Positions 5,589 through 34,143 of a stretch of DNA of 38,116 nucleotides are shown here, one piece after another. A program made the position numbers and the translations under genes. Numbering within the stretch: position 1 is the stretch's first letter; each line of letters opens with the position of its first letter. Source of the DNA: Gammaproteobacteria bacterium (GTDB lineage: Bacteria; Pseudomonadota; Gammaproteobacteria; Pseudomonadales; Azotimanducaceae); assembly GCA_002725285.1 (NCBI GenBank), contig PBRC01000056.1:1-38116 (forward strand), given 5' to 3'. The notes under the pieces are model-generated. The model searched no databases. It was not told the origin of the DNA and worked only from the letters and a program-made list of their open reading frames with translations.

Positions 5589-7919
5589 CTACTCTGGCAG
5601 CGCATAAGCTATCACTTTGCCACCTGTTTGCGTCCTACCATCGCTGGCACCCTCTGGATCTTCCAGGGGATTGCGCAGAGGTCGTACCTGGCTCGGGACA
5701 GTGACCAATACATATTGGCGACCGGTCTTCGGACTCACATAGCTCATCGGTGTCGCATCTGAGCCGCTACGCAGTGAATCCTGCCAAACCACATCTCCGG
5801 TCAGTGCATCTATGGCGCGAAATTCTCCGTCTATGACTCCCCCGTTAAAAATTAGTCCTCCGGCCGTGATAATAGAGCCTGCTGTGGCAGGGAAGCCAAG
5901 ATTGAGAGAGCCCATGCCGCGTCGCCAGACAATTTGCTGTGTGGTGAGATCGACAACAGCAATCTCACTGTAGGGTGGTTTGAGGCAGGGTATAAATAGA
6001 GGCGAGGCAAACATCTTGACGATCGCCGCGAATGGAGTGCCTCGCTGCGCTCCACCAATACCATAACCAGGATTTATTTCCCCCTCGGTGGTATCCAGAT
6101 CATTTTCCCGTGGGATCATGTGAATGACAAATGGCAGATGCATATTGTTAACGACCATTAACTGGCGCTCTTCATCGACAGCGACACTTCCCCAGTTCAT
6201 CCCTCCTCCAGGTCCGGGATACAGCAGCGTGCCCCGGGTGGACGGTGGTGTCATCGGGCCTTCATAGCGCAATCCTAGAAATGTTTTACGGCAAGCCATC
6301 TGGTCAAACGGGCTGATGCCAAAAAGATCCTGTTCGCGAACGCGTGGATGTGCAAAAGAGGGCATGCCGGTGGAAAACGGCTGCGTGGCACTGGATCGCT
6401 CGTTGGGTATATCTGTTTGTGGTACAGGTTTCTCGGTTACTTCTGCCAGTAACTCGCCGGTGCCTCGATCCAGCATGAACAGTTCACCCCGTTTCGTGGG
6501 GACAATGACCGCTTTGCGACTGACCCCTTCAAGTGTGAGGTCAACAAGGGTCGGTTGCGATGCAACATCATAATCCCAGATATCATGATGAGTGGTCTGA
6601 AAGTGCCAACGGGTCAATCCAGTCTTTGCATCGATTGCCACGATTGAGCTGGCGTACTTGTCCATAATCTCTGTGCGGTGGCCACCAAAGTAATCGGGAG
6701 TGGCGTTGCCGGTGGGTACGTATACCAGGCCTAGTTCATCATCTGCCGAGGTCAGACTCCACACGTTGGGTGTGCCACGAGTGTAGTGATCACCAATGGG
6801 CGGCAAACTGGTATTGCCCTCACGCCCCATATCCCATGCCCAAAGTAATGCACCAGTACGTGGATCATAACCTCTGACTACTCCTGATGGCTCTCCTGTT
6901 TCCTGGTTGTCCAGAACCCATCCACCGACGACCAATGCGCCACTTGCGACCGTGGGTGGAGAAGAAACGAAATAATAAAAGGGTTTGACCTCGCCCATCC
7001 CTGCAAGCAAAGAGATCTGTCCGTCAATGCCGAACTCCTCGCAGGGTTTTCCTGAGGCTTTGTCGACCGCGATCATGCGCGCATCTGTTGTGGCTGTATA
7101 AATACGTTCAGCGCAGTACTCACCCTTGACGCGTTCGGGGATATGGTAGTAAGTCACGCCACGGCAATTACCGAGGATGCCGTAGGGTGGTGTTTTGTTT
7201 TCAGGATCATATCGCCAGCGTTCCGCACCGGTGTCAGGATCCAGCGCGAGTACAACATTTTGAGCTGTACAGAGGTATATGCCATCATCGATCTGGATGG
7301 GTGTTGCGCTGAAACGCCCGACTCTTCTGGTATCTGTCTCCCACACCCGGGTCAGTTTTTCGACATTTGATGTGTCGATTTGTGAGTGAGGTACATAACG
7401 GGTACCGGCATGGCTGCCGCCATATGCCGTCCAATCAGAGGTGTTTTGAGGCGGGCCATAGGTTGTGTTCGAAATAGACACAACGGGCTGATTGACCAGG
7501 TTGAAGGACATCGCTAGCAGCACCGCAACACTGCTGGCTGTGCAAACCTGTACGGTACGCATACTGAAAAGTGAAGGTGCGTCACCATCCCACAGACTGC
7601 GTCGAATCATTGGCATGCACAGCCATAGCGAGAGTAAGCCGACGATCCAGATTCTTGATCCTACCAGCCAGAATTCGTTCCCAGCCTCGTAAACTGCCCA
7701 GGCGAGAGTAAGTAACAGCGTTGCAGCAAAAAAATAAAAACCACGCCTGTGTATTCGCCACAGTTCCACCGCGCTGATCGACATCAACAAGCCTGCGCAG
7801 AGGTAGTAGGGCGTACCGCCCAGTATGGCCAACTCACCGCCGAACAGGGTCATGGGAATCCCGATAACGCCAATTAGTACTGCTGTGATTCTTAACGCCC
7901 ACTTGCCTTTTACTGGCAT
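5589..7919 (-). CDS. Membrane-bound PQQ-dependent dehydrogenase (glucose/quinate/shikimate family)
   Basis: A 776-residue quinoprotein. The first ~140 residues form about five membrane helices, as in E. coli Gcd. The rest is a periplasmic eight-bladed propeller with W-motif segments (GALLWAWDMG, TGLTRWHFQ). TTHHDIWDYDV contains the catalytic Asp region, and GSHAGTRYVPHSQID is the usual first blade. It oxidises a sugar or cyclic polyol in the periplasm and passes electrons to ubiquinone. The ORF track starts at 7931, but GGGGAGGAGC lies immediately before the ATG at 7919 and overlaps the upstream ATG, so 7919 is preferred. Length (Gcd is 796) is normal. Glucose, quinate and shikimate cannot be distinguished here, and no PQQ biosynthesis gene is in view. 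Confidence 0.9.
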   Translation of the reverse strand: MPVKGKWALRITAVLIGVIGIPMTLFGGELAILGGTPYYLCAGLLMSISAVELWRIHRRGFYFFAATLLLTLAWAVYEAGNEFWLVGSRIWIVGLLSLWLCMPMIRRSLWDGDAPSLFSMRTVQVCTASSVAVLLAMSFNLVNQPVVSISNTTYGPPQNTSDWTAYGGSHAGTRYVPHSQIDTSNVEKLTRVWETDTRRVGRFSATPIQIDDGIYLCTAQNVVLALDPDTGAERWRYDPENKTPPYGILGNCRGVTYYHIPERVKGEYCAERIYTATTDARMIAVDKASGKPCEEFGIDGQISLLAGMGEVKPFYYFVSSPPTVASGALVVGGWVLDNQETGEPSGVVRGYDPRTGALLWAWDMGREGNTSLPPIGDHYTRGTPNVWSLTSADDELGLVYVPTGNATPDYFGGHRTEIMDKYASSIVAIDAKTGLTRWHFQTTHHDIWDYDVASQPTLVDLTLEGVSRKAVIVPTKRGELFMLDRGTGELLAEVTEKPVPQTDIPNERSSATQPFSTGMPSFAHPRVREQDLFGISPFDQMACRKTFLGLRYEGPMTPPSTRGTLLYPGPGGGMNWGSVAVDEERQLMVVNNMHLPFVIHMIPRENDLDTTEGEINPGYGIGGAQRGTPFAAIVKMFASPLFIPCLKPPYSEIAVVDLTTQQIVWRRGMGSLNLGFPATAGSIITAGGLIFNGGVIDGEFRAIDALTGDVVWQDSLRSGSDATPMSYVSPKTGRQYVLVTVPSQVRPLRNPLEDPEGASDGRTQTGGKVIAYALPE

Positions 7920-9834: not shown

Positions 9835-10203
9835 TTACGGCAGTTCCTCATCCAGGTGGCATTCAATACAGACACGGGTTGGTCCGCCTTCCTCTCCCGC
9901 CAACTGTTTATCTTCATGGCAACCGCGACATAGATCATGAAATTGAGTCTCCAGCAGTGGCCACACTTCCTGGTCCGAAACATGACAGTTCATACATGGT
10001 CCGCCGCCGGTGTCGTCACTGTAGTTATGGTGACAGTCCAGACAGTTCTCACTTTTGTGAGTCTTGTGAGCAAAGGTCATCGGGAGTATCGGGTCCGGGC
10101 TAAGCCAGCGATTTTGCTTTACCGGCTGTTCACCTGGTAACGGAGTGCCCACTGTAAGTAATACGGTTGTTGCCAGTACCAGTACGCAGAGGAATATCTT
10201 CAT
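9835..10203 (-). CDS. Exported tetraheme c-type cytochrome (cytochrome c3/c7-like)
   Basis: A 122-residue protein from the ATG at 10203. The track's start at 10242 lies inside the upstream gene, and the residue-14 Met begins a clear signal peptide, MKIFLCVLVLATTVLL. Four CXXCH motifs follow: CLDCH (54-58), CMNCH (70-74), CRGCH (92-96) and CIECH (112-116). Additional histidines in FAHKTH, CHH and FHDL could be axial ligands, giving low-potential bis-His hemes as in class III cytochromes. It carries electrons in the periplasm. Its start overlaps the stop of the ferric-reductase-like gene by ATGA, so the two are translationally coupled and probably form one electron-transfer unit. Confidence 0.9.
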   Translation of the reverse strand: MKIFLCVLVLATTVLLTVGTPLPGEQPVKQNRWLSPDPILPMTFAHKTHKSENCLDCHHNYSDDTGGGPCMNCHVSDQEVWPLLETQFHDLCRGCHEDKQLAGEEGGPTRVCIECHLDEELP

Positions 10204-10829
10204 ATTGAAAAATTCCTGATCCCCGCAAACAACCAGACGCAAAGCACACCTGCGACTAGATACATAGCTGAGGGTTGTCGTGTTTCCACTTCGCGTCGGG
10301 TGATTAGCTGATCACCAAACAGTGCTGCAATGATTAACATCACGAACAGCACAACCTGAAATGAAATGCTCAGGTAAAATCCGCTGGCCACAATGTGATA
10401 ACCAGCTCCCGCTATCGTTGCGAATGCAAGACCTCGATGCCAGTACTTAAAGATCGCGTAACGTTTGTGAAGGCGCAGGCGATATTCCGGCAAGCCTGTG
10501 AAAATGAGAACAGTGAGTAGTATGAAGCCAAGGATCCCCGCCCACATGTAAACAGGTGCGCCTGGCTTGATGTACTCGATCACTGCAGCGTCAAAGAGCA
10601 AGAACCAGTAAGCATGTGTCGTTGTTACACCCAGCACAGCGAATCCCAGCAACTGATGTGCCTGCTGGTTTTTGCCTGAGCCCTCGGATCTACCCAAATA
10701 GAGAAGCCCGGCAAATGCGACAAAACCCACTCCATTGCCAGTATCCCAGAGCCAGCCAGCCCCCAATGTTGGTGTTGCGATCAGCGTCACGAACAAGACA
10801 CTTAATAATGTCAGCAATAGTCTCTGCAT
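10200..10829 (-). CDS. Ferric-reductase-like bis-heme b membrane protein
   Basis: A 209-residue protein with a cleavable-looking N-terminus and about six membrane helices. Two helices carry His pairs spaced exactly H-x13-H: HQLLGFAVLGVTTTH and HRGLAFATIAGAGYH. This is the bis-heme b signature of the ferric reductase/NOX transmembrane fold. There is no FAD or NAD domain, so it is the membrane core only. It overlaps the tetraheme cytochrome gene by 4 bp. The pair probably moves electrons across the inner membrane between the quinone pool and periplasmic tetraheme c. The direction and terminal partner are unknown. No ribosome site is obvious. Confidence 0.75.
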   Translation of the reverse strand: MQRLLLTLLSVLFVTLIATPTLGAGWLWDTGNGVGFVAFAGLLYLGRSEGSGKNQQAHQLLGFAVLGVTTTHAYWFLLFDAAVIEYIKPGAPVYMWAGILGFILLTVLIFTGLPEYRLRLHKRYAIFKYWHRGLAFATIAGAGYHIVASGFYLSISFQVVLFVMLIIAALFGDQLITRREVETRQPSAMYLVAGVLCVWLFAGIRNFSI

Positions 10830-30434: not shown

Positions 30435-30810
30435 GATGCCTGCCTTCCTTATTGATATCTATCGAATAACATACGAACGAGACAAGTTTACTATATTTAA
30501 TTCAGCGCTGAACAACACGAAGCAAGGCGTAGAAGCAGGTTAAGAACGTGAACCCATATTAGAGGTAAATGCTTATGGTGTTAACTCGAATTCTGGTAGG
30601 TAAATAAACTCGGTTCTGATTAAGAGTTCTTAATAACCAGCTGGATACAAGCGGTAACAAGGGCTCCGAAGATTATTAGTGCCGGTTTTCTTACTCTATT
30701 CACAGTTTGAGCAGTTTGAGCAGTTTGAGGTTTTGCTTGATTCGGTAGGCTTGGCCTGTGTAGAGTCTGCATTCCGTTTGGCAAAATTGGCGTAACGACA
30801 GGAGGTTATG
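30435..30810. other. Divergent intergenic region before the heme operon
   Basis: A 376-bp region with no gene, probably carrying promoters for both flanking units. It holds a three-copy nonamer repeat (30703-30729). A weak -35/-10 like pair, TTGATT-N18-TAGAGT, ends 45 bp before the first heme gene. AGGAGG stands directly before that gene's ATG pair. Confidence 0.5.
30703..30729. repeat. Three tandem copies of a nonamer upstream of the heme operon
   Basis: Three perfect copies of CAGTTTGAG stand head to tail about 80 bp before the first gene of the heme operon and just before a possible -35 (TTGATT at 30737). Such iterated sites can bind an activator or repressor, but slippage is an equal explanation. 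Confidence 0.9.
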
Positions 30811-32490
30811 ATGAAGAATTTAAGCGTACGTGTTGGGTTGTTAGCCGCAATCCTTGCAGCTGCACCCGTAAGTGCAGGTGTCGTGACAGGCCAGGTCAAA
30901 GATGTAGACGGTAATCCCATGACTGGTGTCATGGTCAGGCTGACCAGTAAAGACAATGTATCTGAATCAGTTTTTACTAATGCCAGCGGCGAGTATGAGA
31001 TCAAAACCGACCTCGCAGGTGACATTAGCGTGCGTCTGCGCTTACCCTATTATCGAGATGTCAATACTTCGATCGAGTTGGGTGCAACGGCCACTATTGA
31101 GGAAAATATGGTCATGGAAGCGATGACTGGCGAAAGAGAAATTTCTGATAGCCTGCCCGCTGCCTACCACTTTGGTCAGTTGCCATTCGAAGAAGGTGAC
31201 GACAAGGATTTTAATCGCTACCAGTTTCAACGTGACTGTCTTTCCTGCCATCAAATGGGTAATTCATTCACTCGAGTACCTCGTACCGCCAAGAATTGGA
31301 CAGGTACCGTGAAACGCATGCACATGTATATCGGCAACTTCGACGATAAGCTCATTGACCGAAGGTCTGAAATTTTTGCGGAGGGTTTTGATGGCAAACC
31401 TCTGACAGTTCGACCGGAGTTTCCTGTAGACGAGAAAGCACTATCGACGGCTAAGATTTATGAATACCCTTTGCTGACGCAGGGCGTGCCTCATGACACC
31501 ATCGCACACCCCAAGACGGGGATGCTCTATACTGTTGATCAGGCATTGCATCATATGTCGGTTACCGATCCAAAGTCTGGTGTAAGTGAATATGTCGTCC
31601 AGAACGGATCTCAAGCTGACTACTACTACACCACCTCACCCTCCGAAGGGAAGACTGAGAAGTTTGAACCCAAAACAGATGGACCCCACTCATTAGCATT
31701 AGGTCATGATGGAAAGTACTATGTCACCAATACAGGTAGTACCAGCATTGGTATTTTCAATCCCAATACCAACGAGTGGGAACCTTCTCACAAGCTGCCT
31801 GATGCATACAAAGGTCGATATCCTCATACGATTCGTGTCGCCAAGTCAGGTATGGTGTGGTTTACAATGGCCGGTGCAGAACATGTAGGTCAGCTTGATC
31901 CTGTCTCTGGAAAATTCGATATCATCCCGTTGCCCAAAGTCAAGGCCGGGGGTATTTCTGGTGGTACACAACCCTATGGTATTGACATCAGTCCAACTGA
32001 TGACGCCATGTGGTACGGGCGTTTATTCGGTGACAAAATTGGCCGAGTTGATCCGGATACACTTCATGTCACAGAGTTTAATTCGCCAGTTCGTGGACCA
32101 CGCAGAATGTACTTCGATAACAAAGGAATTCTATGGGTAACAGGGTATTCCGAAGGAAAATTGGCACGCATTGATGTTAATGACTGGTTTCACAGTAAGG
32201 TCTACGATATGCCTGAGTTTGCTCCGGGTTACCGTCCCGCACCCTATGCGCTGGCGATACATCCAGAGACACAGGATATATGGCTGAATGAAAATATGAC
32301 CGACCGCTTGTATCGCTTCATTCAGGATGAAGAGCGGTTTGTTGTCTACCCGGTGCCCTTGTCAAATACTTATACGCGAGATACGAGCTTCACACCGGAT
32401 GGGAAAATCTGTACCTCAAATAATCCATTACCCGCTGCATCGCTTGAGGGGGGTGTATTACAGATCTTCTGCATCGATACCGATGCTTAG
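30811..32490 (+). CDS. Carboxypeptidase-regulatory-like / c-heme / Vgb-like propeller protein
   Basis: 559 residues (ATG 30811 is 5 nt from AGGAGG; the ATG at 30808 is only 2 nt away). Parts in order: a signal peptide to about residue 23; a carboxypeptidase-regulatory-like beta-sandwich at 25-105 (GQVKDVDGNPMTGVMVRL, NASGEYEIKT); one c-type heme at CLSCH 144-148 with W-x-x-x-V-x-RM-x-x-Y after it; then a propeller from about 215 to the end with Vgb (streptogramin lyase)-like blades (GPHSLALGHDGKYYVTNTG, YPHTIRVAKSGMVWFT, QPYGIDISPTDD, GPRRMYFDNKGILWVTG). It is exported and probably periplasmic. The reaction is unknown: a redox enzyme or substrate sensor coupled to heme. It heads an operon with SHP and two DHC genes. 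Confidence 0.82.
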   Translation: MKNLSVRVGLLAAILAAAPVSAGVVTGQVKDVDGNPMTGVMVRLTSKDNVSESVFTNASGEYEIKTDLAGDISVRLRLPYYRDVNTSIELGATATIEENMVMEAMTGEREISDSLPAAYHFGQLPFEEGDDKDFNRYQFQRDCLSCHQMGNSFTRVPRTAKNWTGTVKRMHMYIGNFDDKLIDRRSEIFAEGFDGKPLTVRPEFPVDEKALSTAKIYEYPLLTQGVPHDTIAHPKTGMLYTVDQALHHMSVTDPKSGVSEYVVQNGSQADYYYTTSPSEGKTEKFEPKTDGPHSLALGHDGKYYVTNTGSTSIGIFNPNTNEWEPSHKLPDAYKGRYPHTIRVAKSGMVWFTMAGAEHVGQLDPVSGKFDIIPLPKVKAGGISGGTQPYGIDISPTDDAMWYGRLFGDKIGRVDPDTLHVTEFNSPVRGPRRMYFDNKGILWVTGYSEGKLARIDVNDWFHSKVYDMPEFAPGYRPAPYALAIHPETQDIWLNENMTDRLYRFIQDEERFVVYPVPLSNTYTRDTSFTPDGKICTSNNPLPAASLEGGVLQIFCIDTDA

Positions 32491-32549
32491 GTAGACGTTT
32501 TCGGGTAGCAGTTCTGAGATTATCCTGGATTTGCTACTCGTGATTTTTA

Positions 32550-32948
32550 ATGTCAAACAAGTTCAATTTAGCTGTCAGTCTGATCGGCGTCGTAGCTGGG
32601 CTGTCAACAGCTTGTGCGTCAGCTTCAGAAATAAGGGCTGCCATACTAAAGGAGTACGAGGCCATTGTGGGACAAGCCTTTTCTGCAGACTCCGGGAAGC
32701 AGTTTTGGTATCAAGACAATAACGGCCGAAGCTGCACTACCTGTCACACAGAATCCCTGCTGGCAAAAGGTAGGCATGAGCGAACGGGTAAGATAATTGA
32801 ACCCATGGCACCATCAGTTAATCCTAAGAGACTGACCAAGCGCAAGAAAATCAATAAGTGGTTTCTTCGTAACTGCAAATGGACAATCGGACGTGAGTGC
32901 ACAATCCAGGAAAAAGGCGATATCCTGCTGTGGTTAAGTGAACAGTAA
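32550..32948 (+). CDS. SHP-family monoheme cytochrome c (DUF1924)
   Basis: 132 residues with a signal peptide (about 1-26). It closely matches Sphaeroides heme protein: SCTTCH (heme Cys62, Cys65, His66), RTGKIIEPMAPSVNP, then KWFLRNC...IGREC and EKGDILLWL. In SHP the sixth heme ligand is Asn88 in RNC. The same Asn is present here as N108, and C109/C117 match the SHP disulfide. SHP releases Asn on reduction and binds O2 or NO. It is therefore likely a periplasmic gas-binding high-spin cytochrome, reduced by the di-heme cytochromes encoded next. No ribosome site is visible before the ATG. Confidence 0.88.
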   Translation: MSNKFNLAVSLIGVVAGLSTACASASEIRAAILKEYEAIVGQAFSADSGKQFWYQDNNGRSCTTCHTESLLAKGRHERTGKIIEPMAPSVNPKRLTKRKKINKWFLRNCKWTIGRECTIQEKGDILLWLSEQ

Positions 32949-32977
32949 CTTCTACTAAACAGTGGTGGGCGAATAGG

Positions 32978-33565
32978 ATGAATACCAAGTCAAGAAAAGC
33001 TGCTGGAAAATTATTATGGTTCCCCTCGCTGGCACTTTCGCTTGTAGTCAGTGTTTCGGGCCAGGAAATACGTTATCCCGGGGATCGTAGTAACTACGAC
33101 AACAAGATGCCGCCCGTCTTTGAAACAGATCCGGTTTATATTGAAGAGTGTGCCTCGTGTCACCTGGGATACGCGCCAGGATTATTACCTGAGAAAAGCT
33201 GGCAGAAAATTCTTCAGGGGCTCGAAGATCACTTTGGAGAAAATGCAGAACTCGATTCAGAGTCTGTGAATCATCTTGCAGATTACCTAGAGAAAAACTC
33301 TCTGGAATATGAGAAATCAGACCGGATTGCCAAGTTCAAGAAGAATCTACCCAGCGATCCACCCATTCGGATTACGGAACTACCCGCGTTTATTGTGGAA
33401 CACCAGCCAGCTGTCAGGCAAATCGGTCTTGAAGAAGTAGAAGACGGTTTCTTCAGCCCCTGTGAGGATTGTCACAAACAAGGAGCAAGCGGAATTTTCG
33501 ACAAAGAAAGATTATACAAAGGCTACGGTCCCGACTTTCAGTTTGGAGAGAAGAAGGACTTTTAA
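32978..33565 (+). CDS. Di-heme cytochrome c, DHC family (copy 1)
   Basis: 195 residues with a signal peptide. Two heme motifs: CASCH at 58-62 and CEDCH at 162-166. Family landmarks of the DHC cytochromes are all present: YIEECASCHLGYAPGLLP, SWQKILQGLEDHFGENAEL, PPIRITELPAFIVEH and FFSPCEDCHKQG. DHC is the known electron donor to SHP, and the SHP gene is 29 bp upstream, so it very probably reduces SHP in the periplasm. It is followed by a diverged copy of itself two bases after the stop. Confidence 0.92.
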   Translation: MNTKSRKAAGKLLWFPSLALSLVVSVSGQEIRYPGDRSNYDNKMPPVFETDPVYIEECASCHLGYAPGLLPEKSWQKILQGLEDHFGENAELDSESVNHLADYLEKNSLEYEKSDRIAKFKKNLPSDPPIRITELPAFIVEHQPAVRQIGLEEVEDGFFSPCEDCHKQGASGIFDKERLYKGYGPDFQFGEKKDF

Positions 33566-33567
33566 TA

Positions 33568-34143
33568 ATGCCGCGTTGGTTACACATCAGTTTATTCTTT
33601 TATCTAACCGCCAACTGTACTCTATATTGCGTTGCCGCTGAAAAGTCAGTAGCCGCATCGACCAAGATTGACGCAGGCAACCCAGCTGAGCTATTTACCA
33701 AAGATGATTCCTACATCGACGAGTGCGGTACTTGCCATATAGCCTATCCTCCGATGTTACTACCGGCAAAGAGCTGGCTTAAGCTGATGTCGGGAATTGA
33801 GAATCACTTCCAGGAAAATGCCGAACTCGATGCTGAAACTTCCGCACATATCAGTGAGTATCTTACGCAGAATTCTATGGATACTGTGAGCGATTCAACC
33901 GTTAGCCACTGGTTAACGTCAGTCCCAACTGATCCGCCCATTCGAATAACCGAGTTACCGGCCTTTATCACTGACCACGAGGATGCATACAGTCGGATGG
34001 GTGAGAGCGCCAAAGAGGCCGGCTTCTTTAGTCCCTGTAGAGACTGTCACAAAGAAGCGAACGATGGGATTTTCAGCAAAGACAGGTTGTTCAGGGGGTT
34101 TCGGCATGTATTCGATCGTTTCTCCGATAAGGAAGAACCATAA
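33568..34143 (+). CDS. Di-heme cytochrome c, DHC family (copy 2)
   Basis: 191 residues from ATG 33568. The track's 33469 start reads back through copy 1 in another frame; the real ATG is two bases after copy 1's stop, with AAGAAGG inside that gene as ribosome site. It has a signal peptide, then CGTCH (53-57) and CRDCH (157-161). It aligns end to end with copy 1: ENAELD, PPIRITELPAFI and FFSPC-x-DCHK are shared, while the linker and C-terminus have diverged. It arose by tandem duplication. It may hand electrons to copy 1 or to SHP, or serve a different acceptor. Confidence 0.92.
   Translation: MPRWLHISLFFYLTANCTLYCVAAEKSVAASTKIDAGNPAELFTKDDSYIDECGTCHIAYPPMLLPAKSWLKLMSGIENHFQENAELDAETSAHISEYLTQNSMDTVSDSTVSHWLTSVPTDPPIRITELPAFITDHEDAYSRMGESAKEAGFFSPCRDCHKEANDGIFSKDRLFRGFRHVFDRFSDKEEP

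Follow-up and report, generated by a model that had tools for sequence, protein, structure and literature searches.

The window analysed here, a stretch of 38,116 nucleotides from a gammaproteobacterial MAG, contains two overlapping genes that had been predicted to encode a ferric-reductase-like membrane protein and a tetraheme c-type cytochrome (termed b and c3 in the following; Table 1). The locus raises the question of where a ferric-reductase-like protein devoid of a flavin domain would pass its electrons when coupled to such a cytochrome, and which enzyme the two proteins would serve.

Table 1. Features of the b/c3 gene pair in the window.
Feature	Position	Strand	Description
b gene	10200..10829	-	ferric-reductase-domain membrane protein, 209 aa, ATG start at 10829
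c3 gene	9835..10203	-	121 aa, ATG at 10203, stop ends at 9835; N-terminal signal or anchor
Overlap of b stop and c3 start	10200..10203	-	ATGA

Predicted heme ligands of the b and c3 proteins

In a Pfam search the b protein matched the ferric reductase domain PF01794 with 30.5 bits (cut-off 28 bits), and the sole other match was DUF4405 below threshold. No FAD or NAD domain was detected by Pfam at E≤1, the chain ending at position 10200; b was therefore not assigned to the flavin-containing long form of ferric reductases and NOX proteins. Two H-x13-H pairs, H58/H72 and H131/H145, were counted on the translation. As all four histidines were invariant across seven homologues and remained so in a larger alignment, these pairs are not a chance occurrence. 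The original prediction of both histidine pairs in a protein without FAD/NAD domain was thus borne out.

Hydropathy analysis indicated about seven hydrophobic segments in b. Together with the PF01794 match and the four invariant histidines, this places b in the ferric reductase domain superfamily, which is characterised by a transmembrane domain with heme-spanning His in TM3 and TM5. The number of Lys and Arg residues was two in loop 46-57, five in loop 112-130, three in loop 171-189, one in loop 79-91 and zero in loop 152-158. From hydropathy and the positive-inside rule, H58 and H131 are predicted to face the cytoplasm, and H72 and H145 the periplasm, which places the histidine pairs at matching depths. 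H58/H131 would thus bind a cytoplasmic-side heme and H72/H145 a periplasmic-side heme. An AlphaFold model of b built from a three-row alignment was poor (pLDDT 54, pTM 0.51), and a Foldseek search with it returned no credible match (best E value 0.09, TM score 0.25). In the PDB, no relative was detected by sequence when b itself or the b profile A1 served as query. The b proteins of family f94 and of genome G120 end with a Cys-Cys motif, mostly C-x4-C (e.g. PCPAGRCL, LCAVDPCL), which directly follows the final helix and is predicted to be periplasmic; its codons overlap with the 5' end of the c3 gene (loci L119-L130 and L006-L009). The b protein of the window has no such motif.

The c3 protein matched the class III cytochrome c family (PF02085) with an E value of 1.4e-10 and contains four CxxCH motifs, starting at C54, C70, C92 and C112. 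Residues invariant across seven homologues were H46, H49, C54/C57/H58, H59, C70/C73/H74, F88, H89, C92/C95/H96 and C112/C115/H116. The distal histidines H46, H49, H59 and H89 were kept along with the four CxxCH motifs in the larger alignment, and this invariance argues against a chance set of ligands. In cytochrome c3 of Desulfovibrio an H-x2-H element precedes the first motif, the sequence CxxCHH follows, and a further distal histidine precedes the third motif. The ligand order in the window protein (H-x2-H ... CxxCHH ... CxxCH ... FH-x2-CxxCH ... CxxCH) is the same, and the protein is predicted to carry the full class III ligand set and to bind four hemes. It differs from cytochrome c3 by shorter loops, by having all motifs of the CxxCH type, by its N-terminal signal or anchor and by the co-encoded membrane protein.

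Relatives of the c3 protein in the PDB, as found by sequence, were high-molecular-weight cytochromes c and cytochromes c3. No NapC/NirT-type tetraheme domain was matched in Pfam at E≤1, and the NrfH model reached merely E 0.63. The MauG model (TIGR03791, diheme peroxidase fold) matched neither b nor c3. The AlphaFold model of c3 from a three-row alignment was likewise poor (pLDDT 50, pTM 0.30). A longer open reading frame starting with TTG at 10242 is an alternative for the c3 gene, but this start is not needed because the ATG listed in Table 1 gives a normal hydrophobic N-terminus.

Conserved adjacency and co-inheritance of the pair

The ATGA overlap of the two genes was present as originally described, and translation of b and c3 is probably coupled there. 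The overlap was placed alike in L003, L004 and on Paracoccus plasmids. A promoter scan yielded background level only.

The adjacency of the two families proved to be conserved: searches started from b and from c3 led to 25 distinct loci in Gamma- and Alphaproteobacteria, all 25 with b directly upstream of c3. The b protein retrieved L003 (Oceanospirillales MAG SZUA-36), L004 (UBA2168) and genomes G314, G213, G120 and G091; a b-profile search added G498, and a four-heme c3 gene was located directly downstream in every locus found via b. A c3-profile search of the order detected G787, G750, G844 and G498; in all four, b directly precedes c3, with the b gene of G844 truncated by the end of its contig. 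The same type of search in the G314 family gave twelve more loci, all with b upstream and with the b stop codon 116-125 nt before the first CxxCH codon. Among 72,556 plasmids, the b search and the c3 search recovered the identical three records, two of which carry one shared Paracoccus sp. SMMA_5 locus while the third is P. aminophilus pAMI4. On Paracoccus plasmids the pair is annotated as 'hypothetical protein' and 'cytochrome c3 family protein'. Outside the pair clade, weaker c3 matches were found in G036, G048 and G299, and no c3 gene adjoined the distant b matches, with or without flavin domains. Trees of b and of c3 had their main supported clades in common, namely the clade {window, L003, L004, SMMA_5, P. 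aminophilus, G787, G750} as well as the clades {SMMA_5, P. aminophilus}, {G787, G750} and {G314, G091}, which indicates that the two proteins are co-inherited.

In most loci, the window included, the pair is isolated among unrelated neighbours. This arrangement would fit a general periplasmic reductase module acting on peroxide or another acceptor, in which case any association with a particular enzyme would reflect a common lifestyle or gene flow. It was also the neighbourhood that bore on the original suggestion of metal reduction. A ferric or other metal reductase with c3 as periplasmic reductant is highly improbable. It is favoured by the name of the Pfam family PF01794 and by the presence, about 2.4 to 8 kb downstream of the P. 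aminophilus pair, of genes for siderophore receptors and iron transport. Against it, the family name is inherited from flavin-containing relatives, and neither porin-cytochrome, outer-membrane multiheme and iron-uptake genes nor other metal-reduction genes recur near the pair at other loci.

Further genes in the vicinity of the pair were seen in individual loci. Nitroreductase-like genes, recognised by eye, are divergent from the pair in two f94 genomes (L010 7775-8398, L013 10118-10744). A 2Fe-2S reductase with NAD-binding domain is encoded near the P. aminophilus pair (L078 13257-14294); its gene is convergent, and the protein is not claimed as cytoplasmic electron donor. Another 2Fe-2S reductase gene is located upstream of the G498 pair on the same strand (L039 6716-7666). 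It was not retained as cytoplasmic donor either, since an adjacent open reading frame resembles by eye the small subunit of a ring-hydroxylating oxygenase, to which the reductase could belong.

Co-occurrence and linkage with TTQ amine dehydrogenase

The light chain of TTQ amine dehydrogenase, for which PF02975 served as marker, is rare, being present in 13 of the 369 genomes of the class (many of them MAGs). All five class genomes that carry the pair were among these 13 (Fisher test, 2.3e-8; 6.6e-7 when the window genome was omitted; 2e-5 when the three genomes of one family were collapsed). These co-occurrence figures leave out 11 later genomes of the G314 family without linkage. Pair and TTQ enzyme occurred together in 12 of 14 genomes checked; outside the class set, both were present in G498, G750, G787 and UBA2168. 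The two exceptions, in which the pair was found without a detected light chain, are the MAGs G844 (83% complete) and SZUA-36. In G940, a relative of the window genome from the same genus, neither the pair nor the light chain was found.

The pair was physically linked to an aauBEDA-cytochrome c operon in three lineages and two arrangements, either inside the operon or divergently beside it; most aau operons seen were without the pair. In G787 and G750 the pair forms the 3' end of a cluster with the order heavy chain (PF06433), MauE (PF07291), MauD (TIGR02661, scoring slightly under the cut-off), light chain (PF02975), monoheme c, diheme c4-like cytochrome, b and c3. A plasmid of Paracoccus sp. 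SMMA_5_TC encodes on one strand amine dehydrogenase large subunit, MauE, a redoxin (MauD), light chain, two c-type cytochromes, b and c3. The G1115 pair is oriented divergently to the genes for heavy chain, MauE, MauD, light chain and c.

In the window genome itself, pair and aau operon are on separate contigs. Contig C68 of this MAG contains an intact operon for heavy chain, MauE, a MauD-like protein, light chain and a small c-type cytochrome, and among PDB entries aromatic amine dehydrogenase was the closest match to its heavy chain (185 bits vs 118 for MADH). The tetranucleotide profiles of C68 and the window correlated with r 0.93, those of the two window halves with 0.91. With this match, contamination of the MAG was judged unlikely as a cause of the co-occurrence.

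A literature search revealed no description of the b/c3 pair or of an aau gene cluster. The aau cluster of Alcaligenes faecalis reportedly comprises more open reading frames between aauA and hemE, some of them for c-type cytochromes. The linkage may therefore have been seen before, at a time when no function was assigned to it.

Taken over these genomes, the pair is very probably linked to amine dehydrogenase. The general periplasmic reductase outlined above is unlikely. It could account for the isolated loci and for the two MAGs with the pair and without a detected light chain; against it stand the co-occurrence (5/5 vs a background of 13/369), the physical linkage in three separate lineages and two arrangements, and the same-genus relative G940 that lacks both. 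Of the original prediction, the electron conduit is retained on the basis of the flavin-less b protein coupled to a tetraheme cytochrome, the conserved adjacency and the predicted topology. In place of an undefined periplasmic pool, the evidence points to a specific client, the TTQ aralkylamine dehydrogenase encoded on another contig.

Comparison with known redox systems

MsrQ (YedZ) of the MsrPQ system is a short, flavin-less protein with a ferric reductase domain that relays electrons across the inner membrane to its partner in the periplasm, and in YedZ and STEAP proteins the first heme histidine is replaced by arginine (PMC3591440). The b protein resembles MsrQ/YedZ in being short, flavin-less and of the same domain type. 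It differs in that all four histidines are kept, with H58 invariant, and in that all 25 loci pair it with a tetraheme c3, whereas the partner of MsrQ is a molybdoenzyme. Invariant H58 and the c3 partner rule out that b is an MsrQ/YedZ protein.

The inner-membrane proteins of the porin-cytochrome clusters PCC3 and PCC4 are small, contain two H-x13-H pairs and an SGxxG motif on TM4, are encoded beside multiheme cytochromes c, and were proposed to be quinone-reactive diheme b proteins (PMC5566968). In a comparison restricted to motifs, b has likewise two H-x13-H pairs, with AGxxG in place of SGxxG. PCC3 and PCC4 differ by five TM helices, compared with about seven in b, and by the presence of a porin and large multiheme cytochromes; none of the latter two was recognised near the pair among the open reading frames of the window or the listed pair loci.

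FAD-fused long-form ferric reductases share with b the membrane domain and the four histidines. They differ by their FAD and NAD domains and were placed, with weak support, on a branch separate from b. One such reductase is encoded in G036, where the next gene is that of a related tetraheme c3 (L034 1504-3318), giving a flavin-fused counterpart of the pair; this genome is without TTQ light chain.

The mau system of P. denitrificans resembles the aau-linked pair in that it has a membrane redox pair of its own, MauM/MauN (annotated as NapG/NapH), in addition to MauG. The two differ in kind, MauM/MauN being Fe-S and NapH-like proteins and the present pair a c3 cytochrome and a ferric-reductase-domain protein. 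The aau-type operons seen consisted of BEDA and small c-type cytochromes, with no adjoining MauG-type gene. P. aminophilus carries mauFBEDACJGMN on its chromosome (PMC4543880); its b/c3 pair is apart from this cluster, which is a MauG-type system.

TTQ clusters without the pair contained other redox genes. Those of G333 and of G312 (the latter by inspection of open reading frames) encode a b561-type cytochrome b along with a multiheme c (L073 2986-5110 and L074 22-1368 for G333 and G312), which would represent a parallel solution. At the place taken by b and c3 in other clusters, the TTQ cluster of G070 (L072 545-2700) has a MauG-like protein and a heptaheme c. Together with MauM/MauN, these examples indicate that a membrane redox module of one kind or another is part of several TTQ clusters. 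A small c-type cytochrome gene follows that of the light chain in nearly all aau-type operons and not in mau (e.g. L077 11007-11456, L036 6413-6859, L058 about 7541-7900). This small cytochrome is a possible natural electron acceptor or maturation factor.

Proposed function and direction of electron flow

We tentatively propose that the pair is an accessory two-component transmembrane conduit serving TTQ aralkylamine dehydrogenase, with inward flow favoured; it would probably be the private electron wire of this enzyme through the cell membrane. We infer that b and c3 form a complex in which the diheme b protein would reside in the inner membrane and the tetraheme c3-type cytochrome on its periplasmic face. 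Electrons from amine oxidation would leave TTQ through one or more of the small c-type cytochromes encoded in the operon, reach c3 and then enter the quinone pool of the membrane by way of the b hemes. This route would be an alternative to that via azurin or cytochrome c to a terminal oxidase. Against the proposal stand the location of pair and operon on different contigs in the window genome, the aau-type operons that do without the pair, the two MAGs with the pair in which no light chain was detected, and the separation of the P. aminophilus pair from its mau cluster.

Given the link to amine dehydrogenase, the chances that electrons flow inward are considered even. Among class genomes with an operon of the aau plus c type, five of ten have the pair and five of ten do not, so the pair appears to be an accessory, present in half of them. 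Its absence from the other half argues against a general need for it in TTQ formation and in favour of an electron-transfer branch. Flow from TTQ to quinone is favoured by this accessory character taken together with the membrane redox modules of several TTQ clusters.

The main rival to inward transfer is outward flow for TTQ making, in which quinol or a cytoplasmic flavin reductase would deliver electrons via the pair to a periplasmic O2-activating heme protein of aau-type operons. We regard this as rather unlikely, although the lack of an adjoining MauG-type gene in these operons, in comparison with mau of P. denitrificans, speaks for it, and the arrangement in G036 provides a precedent for a path from NAD(P)H via b to c3. 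As a rule, bis-His hemes of the c3 type have low potentials; these would be better suited to outward flow and count against the inward reading. Besides the genomes that have the operon without the pair, outward flow may be opposed by MauG-like diheme proteins encoded elsewhere in most of these genomes; none of these proteins reached the MauG cut-off, and generic diheme peroxidases also match in such a search. The specific version in which b and c3 feed a small c-type heme protein of the operon that activates O2, and thereby direct electrons to MauG-independent TTQ formation, is distinctly unlikely.

The pair bears on the electron hand-off of the aralkylamine dehydrogenases that occur with it and on the formation of TTQ in aau systems without adjoining MauG, and strains with a linked operon give direct access to both questions. 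With the conduit reading, a pair annotated merely as hypothetical protein and cytochrome c3 gains a candidate client enzyme and a candidate task. More generally, the pair suggests that a ferric-reductase-domain protein devoid of flavin can conduct electrons through the membrane on two hemes in connection with a c3 cytochrome.

A second c-type cytochrome cluster in the window

The region 30808-34143 of the window is a second c-type cytochrome cluster. On the plus strand, positions 32550-34143 encode a DUF1924 protein (PF09086, which we take to be the SHP family) and, downstream of it, two similar-looking proteins from genes in tandem; that of the first gene matched dihaem cytochrome c (PF09626) with an E value of 2e-28. 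Adjoining this group, a Vgb-lyase-like protein with one CxxCH motif is encoded at 30808-32490.
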